From contig CACNFD010000001.1 of NCBI GenBank assembly GCA_902619615.1, forward strand, positions 192,501 to 256,500: a stretch of 64,000 bases of DNA, written 5' to 3'. The stretch's first letter is position 1; every line of letters starts with the position of its first letter. This DNA comes from an uncultured SAR116 cluster alpha proteobacterium. GTDB taxonomy: Bacteria; Pseudomonadota; Alphaproteobacteria; Puniceispirillales; Marisalimonadaceae. Of this stretch, positions 58,304-60,696 are shown piece by piece. Both the position numbers and the translations under genes were made by a program. Below the pieces are notes generated by a model. That model worked only from the letters and a program-made list of their open reading frames with translations. It was not told the origin of the DNA and did not search any database.

Positions 58304-58324
58304 TTTATCATAATAGTACCTCAA

Positions 58325-59202
58325 ATGAGAAAGTAGTTCATATATATAACATAATACCAATAATTTTTGTATTACTATGGTCTTCGGCATTCATTACCAG
58401 CAAAATAATTATCGATAATGCCCCACCTTTTCTCTCGCTTTCAATAAGATTTGGGATAGTTGCCTTTTTATTTTTCCTTTTTTTCATTTATTTTTCAAAA
58501 GACAAACATATTTCTTTTCAAGCTTTTAAAAATGCATCCATTAGTGGGTTGTTATTTCATGGCTTATATTTAGGTGGAGTTTTTTTTGCTTTATCTCAAG
58601 GTATATCAGCTACCCTTATAGCGTTAATTGTCTCATTACAACCTATTCTAACATCATTTCTAGCAAAAATTTATTTGAATGAAACTTTAACTAAATATCA
58701 GTTGCTTGGTATCATTTTAGGATTTAGTGGTGCATTGATAATTATAATTTCTGATCTAATTGATGGTCTAACTATAGTTGCTTTTCTTGCTGGAATAGTT
58801 GGACTAATTTCATCTTCACTAGGTATTATTTGGCAGAAAAAAATAGGATCTGATTTATCTCTGTCTGGGAATAATTTTTTACAAGCATTAAGTGCTGCAA
58901 CTTTTCATCTTCTATTAGCGTTATGCTTTGAAGAATTTTCTTTAAATTTATCAAATGATTTTATATTAGCTATGTCGTGGCAAATATTTGCTGTTTCACT
59001 TGGTGCATTTTTGATTTTGATGTGGTTATTAGCGAATAATAAAGCAAATGAAACATCAACTTTATTTTTTTTAGTACCTCCTATTTCTGCTTTACTCGCT
59101 TTTTTAATATTAGAAGAAACATTCACTTTTTTTGACTTCTTTGGTTTATTTCTTTCTTGTATTGGGGTATTTATGGTTTCAAAAATTCAAATAAAAATGT
59201 AA
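58325..59202 (+). CDS. DMT-family transporter (EamA) with irregular start
   Basis: Drug/metabolite transporter with about 10 membrane helices in two EamA repeats. The N-terminal EamA consensus (PIIFVLLWSSAFITSKII, APPFLSLSIRFG) is encoded in a frame open from about 58304, but no ATG, GTG or TTG occurs before it; the first in-frame such codon (TTG 58549) would remove 2-3 helices. ATG 58325-58327 joins the coding frame only after a -1 shift at ATG-AGA-AAG, or if one A is missing from the A-run. Second EamA repeat ends in ETFTFFDFFGLFLSCIGV. Substrate unknown. Confidence 0.8.
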
Positions 59203-59257
59203 ATATTTTACAGTATTGATTTATTTTAAAATATTGTTAATCTTTATTTATCAAAGT

Positions 59258-59424
59258 CTTTTTGTGTGAGAGAGTTATTTATAACCGCCGAAGGAGCAAC
59301 CACCCCGGAAACTCTCAGGCACCCGAAACACAAAAAGTTGATAATCTGGAGAGTGGTGATTTTATCATCCACCGAAGGGGTAAGCCAATTTTGGTCAATC
59401 TTTCAGGTTCCGTGACAGATGGGG
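59258..59424 (+). promoter_or_regulatory. Tandem glycine riboswitch (two gcvT-type aptamers)
   Basis: Aptamer 1 at 59258-59337: P1 pairs CTTTTTGTG (59258-59266) with CACAAAAAG (59329-59337); core blocks GAGAGAG, CCGCCGAAGGAGCAA and ACTCTCAGGCA. Aptamer 2 at 59344-59420: P1 ATCTG (59344-59348) with CAGAT (59416-59420); core GGAGAGTGG, CCACCGAAGGGGTAA and CTTTCAGG, followed by GACAGATGGGG. Two adjacent aptamers with a short linker are the classic tandem glycine form. It controls the DadA-like gene at 59464. Confidence 0.93.
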
Positions 59425-59456
59425 TAATATTTAATTTACAAAAACTTTGTCACGGA
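59409..59456 (+). promoter_or_regulatory. Riboswitch expression platform (anti-Shine-Dalgarno helix)
   Basis: TCCGTGACA at 59409-59417, part of the second aptamer's 3' strand, is perfectly complementary to TGTCACGGA at 59448-59456. The latter holds the GGAG ribosome site (59454-59457) of the gene starting at ATG 59464. When glycine stabilises the aptamer, the 59409-59417 strand is used there and the ribosome site is free; without it the helix hides the site. This predicts a translational ON switch. Confidence 0.8.
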
Positions 59457-59463
59457 GTTTATT

Positions 59464-60696
59464 ATGAAAAACATAGCAATAATAGGAGCAGGTATAACTG
59501 GAATAACTACTGCTTACCAACTTCTAGAAAGAGGTTATACTGTATCTGTTTTTGATAAAAACCGTTATGCTGCCATGGAAACTAGTTTTGCAAATGGTGG
59601 TCAATTATCTGCTTGCAACGCTGAAGTTTGGAATAGTTGGTCAACAATAGGTAAAGGTATCCAATGGATGTTGAAAAAAGATGCTCCTCTGCTATTCAGT
59701 CCTAAGTTAAATTTTCATAAAGTTAAATGGATTATTGATTTTATAAGTAATATTCCGAACCACAAAAAAAATACAATTTTAACAGCCAAAATGGCTATAG
59801 ATAGTAGAAATGAATTCAAAAGAATTTTAAAAAAGGAAAAAATCAAACTTGATCTTGAAGAGAAGGGTATCATGCATTTATGTGAATGTTACGCCTCATT
59901 GGAACATGGAAGAAAAGTGAACAAATGGCTTTTAGAAGCAGGATTAGATAGAAGAGAAATTTCTAAAGATGAGATGTTATCAATTGAACCAACGATAAAC
60001 CTTAAAAATTTTATTGGAGGATTTTATACAAAAAGTGATATGTCTGGAGATATCCATAAGTTTACAAAATTACTTGCTGACGCTTGTGGAAGAAAAGGTG
60101 TAAAGTTTTTTTATGAAACAGAAATTATTAAGGTTAATCACGATAACAAACAACCAATACTTACCTTTAATCAATCTAACAATATTCAAAGTCAAAATTT
60201 TGATGGGATTGTAATTTGTGCTGGCGTAAACAGTAAATTTATTGCAAGTGAGTTAGGTGATAAAATTAATATATATCCTGTAAAAGGATATTCAATTACA
60301 ATATTACTCAATGATGAAGAGAGCATAAGAAATGCTCCTTATGTGTCTTTACTAGATGACAAAGCTAAGATTGTATCAAGTAGATTAGGAAAAGACAGAT
60401 TTAGAGTTGCAGGCACAGCTGAATTTAATGGTTATAACAAAGACATAAGGGCAGATAGAATTAATCCTCTTATTAAGTGGTGTAATGAGCTTTTTCCAAA
60501 AGTTTCCACAGAACACGCTATACCATGGGCAGGATTAAGACCTATGACACCTAGCATGGTGCCCAGAGTTGGAAGTGGGAAATTACCAGGAGTATTTTAC
60601 AATACAGGACATGGACATCTTGGTTGGACACTCAGTGCATTTACATCTCAACAAATTTCAGACCATATAATTAGAAAGGATAATATTTTAAACTAA
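59464..60696 (+). CDS. FAD-dependent D-amino acid dehydrogenase / glycine oxidase-like enzyme (DadA family)
   Basis: 410-aa DAO/DadA flavoenzyme. Rossmann FAD site IAIIGAGITGITTAYQLLERGYTVSVFDK, the ETSFANGGQLSACNAEVW block, VYPLKGYSITI-type PVKGYSITILL and the C-terminal GLRPMTPSMVPRVG...NTGHGHLGWTLS signature, all closely DadA-like. It oxidatively deaminates an amino acid and passes electrons to the respiratory chain. The glycine riboswitch directly in front indicates that glycine, or a D-amino acid metabolised with it, is the substrate or signal. It ends 2 bp from convergent gyrB. Exact substrate is inference. Confidence 0.88.
   Translation: MKNIAIIGAGITGITTAYQLLERGYTVSVFDKNRYAAMETSFANGGQLSACNAEVWNSWSTIGKGIQWMLKKDAPLLFSPKLNFHKVKWIIDFISNIPNHKKNTILTAKMAIDSRNEFKRILKKEKIKLDLEEKGIMHLCECYASLEHGRKVNKWLLEAGLDRREISKDEMLSIEPTINLKNFIGGFYTKSDMSGDIHKFTKLLADACGRKGVKFFYETEIIKVNHDNKQPILTFNQSNNIQSQNFDGIVICAGVNSKFIASELGDKINIYPVKGYSITILLNDEESIRNAPYVSLLDDKAKIVSSRLGKDRFRVAGTAEFNGYNKDIRADRINPLIKWCNELFPKVSTEHAIPWAGLRPMTPSMVPRVGSGKLPGVFYNTGHGHLGWTLSAFTSQQISDHIIRKDNILN

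Follow-up and report, generated by a model that had tools for sequence, protein, structure and literature searches.

A tandem glycine riboswitch precedes a PRK12409-family flavoenzyme gene in SAR116 bacteria, where the enzyme probably oxidises glycine in place of a lost cleavage system

Why should a glycine riboswitch stand in front of a gene named as a D-amino acid dehydrogenase? The question is raised by a locus in an uncultured alphaproteobacterium (assembly GCA_902619615.1), found within a 64,000-nucleotide stretch of contig CACNFD010000001.1, which was analysed as a whole and is called the window here. The genome is assembled as 2.16 Mb in 59 contigs and is 99% complete, and its closest named relatives are SAR116-cluster Alphaproteobacteria. 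The loci nearest to that of the window (L077-L112 and L122) have 77-93% protein identity, and include AG-series single cells and SCGC AAA536-G10. An earlier note on this DNA had described two adjacent glycine aptamers and a translational ON switch ahead of a DadA-type flavoenzyme, and had proposed that glycine, or D-amino acids occurring with it, would be deaminated by the enzyme, with the electrons passing to respiration. Positions are those of the window, and all features of the riboswitch and of the enzyme gene are on the + strand.

Both aptamers are recognised by the RF00504 covariance model, in agreement with the earlier note. Aptamer 1 (59255-59340) scores 62.9 bits and aptamer 2 (59336-59428) scores 55.7 bits in a search of the genome, the gathering cut-off being 32; when it is searched alone, in sequence taken from 59341 onwards, aptamer 2 scores 49.9 bits. 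In contig numbering aptamer 2 lies at 251836-251928 (window offset 192500). An Rfam scan of the window gave aptamer 1 alone, presumably because the 5-base overlap of the two matches caused the second to be removed, as is done with overlapping matches of one clan. These are the sole RF00504 matches in the genome at E-values up to 1. The arrangement is the tandem form, with adjacent aptamers (59255-59428) sharing a single expression platform, and the ATG of the gene comes next, at 59464. In the alignment to the RF00504 model, the P1 helix of aptamer 2 is formed by 59344-59348 (5' strand) and 59416-59420. In the minimum-energy fold, the leader strand 59250-59254 pairs with 59338-59342 (AUCAA/UUGAU), forming a helix which we take to be the known leader-linker element of the glycine riboswitch. 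The stability of the whole leader (59250-59480) is unremarkable (z -1.54, 11 of 200 shuffles as low). The glycine-GGAnGA variant-ligand riboswitch (RF03166) was also considered, and was rejected on a score of 67.7 bits against a gathering cut-off of 110. The RNA itself is ordinary, and riboswitches of its kind are already known: the tandem glycine riboswitch of proteobacterial gcvTHP operons (RF00504) likewise has two aptamers, one platform and a predicted ON logic for the disposal of glycine. The difference is in the target, which here is a single flavoenzyme gene and not the cleavage operon.

The link between the aptamers and the gene is a helix over the ribosome site. As the earlier note had pointed out, 59409-59417 and 59448-59456 are complementary over 9 bp, and the match is exact. 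It is lengthened by A-U and G-U pairs, so that an anti-Shine-Dalgarno strand at 59405-59419 pairs with 59446-59460, the latter carrying the ribosome site GGAG at 59454-59457, 6 nt upstream of the ATG. The anti-Shine-Dalgarno strand overlaps the conserved core GG of aptamer 2 and the 3' strand of its P1 helix. Bases 59416-59419 are used by both helices, and P1 and the anti-Shine-Dalgarno helix are therefore mutually exclusive. Such a complement is uncommon by chance: when 59341-59466 was shuffled 1000 times with its dinucleotides preserved, a Watson-Crick helix of at least 9 bp that touched the ribosome site arose in 5 cases. The hairpin of 59400-59470 has a folding energy of -19.1 kcal/mol (z -3.95), with none of 200 shuffles as low. 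No terminator-like site was found in 59100-59520, and a transcription terminator was rejected as the expression platform on that ground.

The helix is also conserved. In an alignment of 40 leaders from relatives (38 distinct rows, 153 columns), it is paired in 93.0% of the cells of the 38 distinct leaders, compared with 35.8-51.7% for the same rows when the partner strand is slid by 1-3 columns; it is partly broken in L089 and L091, two members of the genus. Covariation is thin, since changes on both sides of the helix occur in only four rows, all at a single pair, and 333 of 500 shuffles reach the observed count of pairs changed on both sides. Much of the other variation replaces G-C by G-U through changes in the 3' strand, a pattern consistent with a 5' strand that is constrained by the aptamer.

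The two states were also compared by their predicted energetics. In the window, freeing a stretch of 17 bases around the start takes 14.8 kcal/mol with the anti-Shine-Dalgarno strand (OFF) and 5.7 kcal/mol without it (ON), and the averages over the leaders are 11.0 and 4.9 kcal/mol. Opening costs more in OFF than in ON for 46 of the 47 distinct leaders, L114 showing the reverse. In the ON model of the window a weak local hairpin still pairs the ribosome site, for which the mean unpaired probability is 0.08 in ON and 0.10 in OFF; over the distinct leaders, this probability is higher in ON in 32 of 47. The secondary-structure energy of ON is 9.5 kcal/mol worse than that of OFF, before any energy from the ligand and from tertiary structure is counted. 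That local hairpin could be read as a sign that the element is an OFF switch, and a variant of this reading, in which just one aptamer is used, could appeal to the SAR116 genes that carry the riboswitch, since a single aptamer was matched in seven of 35 (one of the seven starting at a contig end). We regard both as very improbable. The hiding strand includes bases from P1 of aptamer 2 and from its conserved core, which sets ligand binding against hiding; this and the opening costs speak against an OFF switch, and the scores of both window aptamers over the cut-off speak against the use of one. The element is accordingly taken to be a translational ON switch, whose modelled ON state still permits a weak hairpin over the site. 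The aptamer scores and the conservation in relatives bear out the earlier note here: as predictions from sequence, the tandem form, the target gene and the translational ON logic of the glycine riboswitch are well supported.

The target gene (59464-60696) encodes a protein of 410 amino acids, a FAD-dependent amino-acid dehydrogenase of the PRK12409 family. It matches NF009074 (PRK12409, 'D-amino acid dehydrogenase') with 628.3 bits, over the curated cut-off of 494, and PF01266 (DAO) with 207.7 bits, and to this extent 'DadA-type' was a sound description. The family name suggests a true D-amino acid dehydrogenase, acting for example on D-alanine, in which case glycine would merely signal that amino acids are plentiful. 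The profile scores lean the same way, as the protein is nearer to DadA (NF001933, PRK00711; 308.2 bits) than to the glycine oxidase ThiO (TIGR02352; 130.1 bits), although it is below the curated cut-off in both cases (383 and 250.8, respectively). DadA is a member of the same superfamily with the better profile score, and the protein is nonetheless outside its curated range.

Comparison with solved structures gives a different order. The six best matches in a sequence search of the PDB are all glycine oxidases, and ThiO (PDB 7cyx, 4ysh, 1ng3) is the nearest solved protein in both sequence and fold. An AlphaFold2 model (mean pLDDT 80.4, from a 17-row alignment) was used for a fold search, in which glycine oxidases take the first four places and the sixth, and the other five of the top ten are sarcosine oxidase (three chains), dimethylglycine dehydrogenase and L-proline dehydrogenase (one each); D-arginine dehydrogenase appears at ranks 34 and 45. 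With TM-scores of about 0.7 and 12-20% identity, these predicted-fold matches are evidence at the level of the superfamily. A W(A/S)G(L/I)RP stretch is common to ThiO and the enzyme in two alignments, and all 151 full-length rows, near-duplicates included, contain the motifs WxGxRP and GHGHLGW. In glycine oxidase the arginine of a WxGxRP-type motif binds the substrate carboxylate. It should be noted that, in comparison with ThiO, our use of 'dehydrogenase' rather than 'oxidase' simply follows the family name.

The sarcosine and dimethylglycine enzymes, close behind the glycine oxidases in the fold search, raise the possibility of an enzyme that forms glycine by oxidising sarcosine or another N-substituted glycine, and that is induced by glycine. 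We think this unlikely. The sarcosine oxidase beta profile scores just 32.9 bits, and no folate-binding domain is among the Pfam matches at E-values up to 0.001. Furthermore, induction by the product would push glycine up, which is opposite to the action of the glycine ON switches of gcvT. Glycine itself as the substrate is the reading that we prefer, and it draws on two further lines of evidence, namely the distribution of the riboswitch and that of the glycine cleavage system.

The linkage of riboswitch and gene was followed in three samples. The first comprised 72 genomes of the order (SAR116), each at least 80% complete and most of them draft assemblies. PRK12409 is over the cut-off in 36, and in 35 of these the same contig and strand carries an RF00504 match at a distance of 20-154 bases upstream; the exception (G060) has no RF00504 match, and another frame lies about 106 bases upstream of its PRK12409 gene. 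The second consisted of named loci, 80 of which were fetched and 40 scanned for the riboswitch, which was found upstream of PRK12409 in 39 of the 40, and in 28 of the 29 outside SAR116. Linked genera outside SAR116 include Pseudooctadecabacter, Phyllobacterium, Comamonas, Ancylobacter, Bosea and Neomegalonema; L136 (Dankookia) has no RF00504 match over the cut-off upstream of the gene. The third was a sample of 299 genomes drawn evenly from the phylum. Of the 22 that have PRK12409, the genome studied here being counted, 21 have the riboswitch 36-119 bases upstream. A glycine riboswitch upstream is therefore the rule for the PRK12409 family, being present in nearly every genome examined. The earlier note had seen the target as an exception among genes under glycine riboswitches; this does not hold, the linkage being common in Alpha- and Betaproteobacteria.

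The ligands of riboswitches are usually substrates or products of the pathway that is controlled. That almost all genomes with the gene have a glycine riboswitch before it thus counts against D-amino acids as the substrate. The one exception in the phylum sample (G335) can be cited on the other side: its PRK12409 gene is directly behind an amino-acid permease, with no riboswitch upstream, and its RF00504 match is at another place in the genome.

A gene tree of 59 rows puts the window's family in one clade (SH-aLRT 100) and the remaining SAR116 sequences, from two other families, in a second (99), both apart from the other Alpha- and Betaproteobacteria; the tree comes from a quick search, has an unsure midpoint root and contains two very long rows. 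These clades, and the occurrence of the same pair in Phyllobacterium, Comamonas, Ancylobacter and others, led us to reject a recent one-off retargeting of a gcvT riboswitch in the window's genus. Together, the tree and the spread of the pair imply that the combination of riboswitch and gene is old or widely spread. No obvious recurrent operon partner was seen downstream of PRK12409 in 53 loci, the frames of which are unannotated. As a separate observation, the PRK12409 gene of L144 (Comamonas testosteroni NFYY023) and L160 has an internal stop, leaving pieces of 181 and 211 amino acids behind a two-aptamer riboswitch.

What else disposes of glycine in these organisms? Profile searches of the genome studied here, which as stated above is 99% complete, found no GDC-P (GcvP), no GCV_H and no GcvT over cut-off. 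Its best GcvT relative, a gene on contig 6 (25456-26391; 858-1973 in L184) and the better of two GcvT-family matches, was considered as a GcvT candidate and rejected: it scores 151.6 bits as GcvT and 393.6 as DMSP demethylase, to which it is closest though slightly under that cut-off (NF009133, 410), and may be called DMSP demethylase-like.

In the order as a whole GcvP is present in 28 of the 72 genomes, and it tends to be where PRK12409 is not (3 of the 36 genomes with PRK12409, 25 of the 36 without). Both are found in three genomes (G039, G067, G096), PRK12409 alone in 33, GcvP alone in 25 and neither in 11. Fisher's test gives a p-value of 1e-7 by genome and 0.010 by genus (genus assigned by majority, one mixed genus left out); the exclusion is clustered by genus, so that the events are not independent and the genome-level value overstates it. 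GCV_H, present in 29 of the 72 genomes, follows the same pattern, occurring in only G039, G067 and G096 among the 36 with PRK12409. The eleven genomes with neither GcvP nor PRK12409 over the cut-off indicate that neither is always needed, although in one of them (G087) a PRK12409 gene is cut by a contig end. In G088 (6% contamination, no GcvP match), riboswitches precede both PRK12409 and a gcvT fragment at a contig end; this genome was counted as GcvP-free, and its cleavage system may be present but unassembled. Outside the order the two glycine routes usually coexist, GcvP being kept in 14 of 21 genomes with PRK12409.

Where SAR116 genomes do have GcvP, it is generally behind a glycine riboswitch of its own: in 22 of 28 an RF00504 match is found 1.6-2.1 kb upstream of gcvP on the same strand, and the intervening gene is gcvT over the curated cut-off in all nine that were scored among those 22. 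The riboswitch precedes both PRK12409 and GcvP in G096. Five genomes (G039, G067, G068, G077, G078) have GcvP with no glycine riboswitch match nearby, together with the five highest GcvH scores, which suggests that their cleavage system was differently inherited. We also observed seven genomes of genus g5 (G040, G043, G049, G052, G056, G058, G097) with no match to RF00504, PRK12409 or GcvP; one of the seven is a single contig, and two have GcvH alone.

Near-exclusion with GcvP within the order would not be expected of an enzyme for D-alanine, and with the constancy of the riboswitch it leads us to consider a true D-amino acid dehydrogenase as rather improbable, though by no means negligible. 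As to the proposal in the earlier note, its glycine half is strengthened by the near-constant riboswitch linkage, and by the presence of the gene mostly where the cleavage system is absent in the order, while still being a deduction; its D-amino acid half is less favoured. We consider it likely that PRK12409 is wrongly named, and that it is a glycine dehydrogenase serving to remove glycine in lineages that no longer have the cleavage system. In SAR116 the riboswitch-gene pair seems to have been retained as that system disappeared, and the pattern across genera, read literally, would mean more than one such loss.

The mechanism that we propose is as follows. When glycine is absent, 59405-59419 would pair with 59446-59460 and hide the ribosome-binding site. 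When it is present, aptamer 2 would close its P1 helix and reclaim 59416-59419 and the core GG, which would greatly lower the cost of opening the site. The enzyme would then most likely oxidise glycine to glyoxylate and ammonia, and the glyoxylate would enter malate synthase, which is encoded in this genome and in 65 of the 72 genomes of the order (31 of the 36 with PRK12409). With the cleavage system lost, no gene other than PRK12409 was found behind a glycine riboswitch, and PRK12409 would probably be the main outlet in this SAR116 lineage for the glycine coming from serine hydroxymethyltransferase. We infer glycine binding, switching, the substrate, the electron acceptor and the role of serine hydroxymethyltransferase; taken as a whole, a canonical tandem glycine riboswitch that turns on translation of PRK12409, whose product oxidises glycine and replaces the cleavage system, seems to us a likely account. 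A broader statement is on balance probable, if a little less so: PRK12409 would be a widespread mis-named glycine dehydrogenase, forming a second riboswitch-controlled disposal route in Proteobacteria and replacing the lost cleavage system in several SAR116 lineages, with glycine leaving as glyoxylate and ammonia and not as one-carbon units. Because riboswitch and gene are so regularly partnered, glycine oxidation can be put forward as a testable function for a family whose name gives no hint of it. If this is true, ocean bacteria that have no cleavage system handle glycine, serine and one-carbon units unlike SAR11 and most model bacteria.

The comparison with SAR11, which are also streamlined marine Alphaproteobacteria, is instructive. 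Glycine riboswitches are described there on glcB (malate synthase) and gcvT, again tying glycine to the glyoxylate step; SAR11 differs in that it keeps gcvT under the switch and regulates the use of glyoxylate (PMC2211319, PMC2704228, PMC5069720). Here the proposed step is from glycine to glyoxylate, and the cleavage system is absent. A literature search found no paper naming PRK12409 or a D-amino acid dehydrogenase as the target of a glycine riboswitch, though the supplements of surveys may already list it. In a 2025 survey thiO is under a TPP riboswitch, and its main text has COG0665 only under TPP (PMC12452182). Sun et al. (2013) report twelve glycine-metabolism orthologues under glycine riboswitches (PMC3766115), and Crum et al. 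(2019) have a 'glycine metabolism' bin, the genes of which are unnamed in the text (PMC6944388). Nor, with the same reservation about the supplements, does the literature found reassign the function of PRK12409 or connect the gene with loss of the cleavage system.

It is worth adding that the DMT exporter just upstream is indeed outside the switch, as the earlier note had it. Among the 80 named loci that were fetched, 36 have a homologue of it next to the gene, and these 36 all belong to the closest relatives. The EamA/DMT exporter frame (58324-59202) is open from about 58324, and has no ATG, GTG or TTG before 58549. In L084 there is a stop just before the conserved IIPIIFV. Seven relatives were compared over 90 bases there: five have no usable start, and in-frame starts are present in L077 (ATG) and L078 (TTG). 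To judge from the reading frame, a non-AUG start of the exporter is possible.
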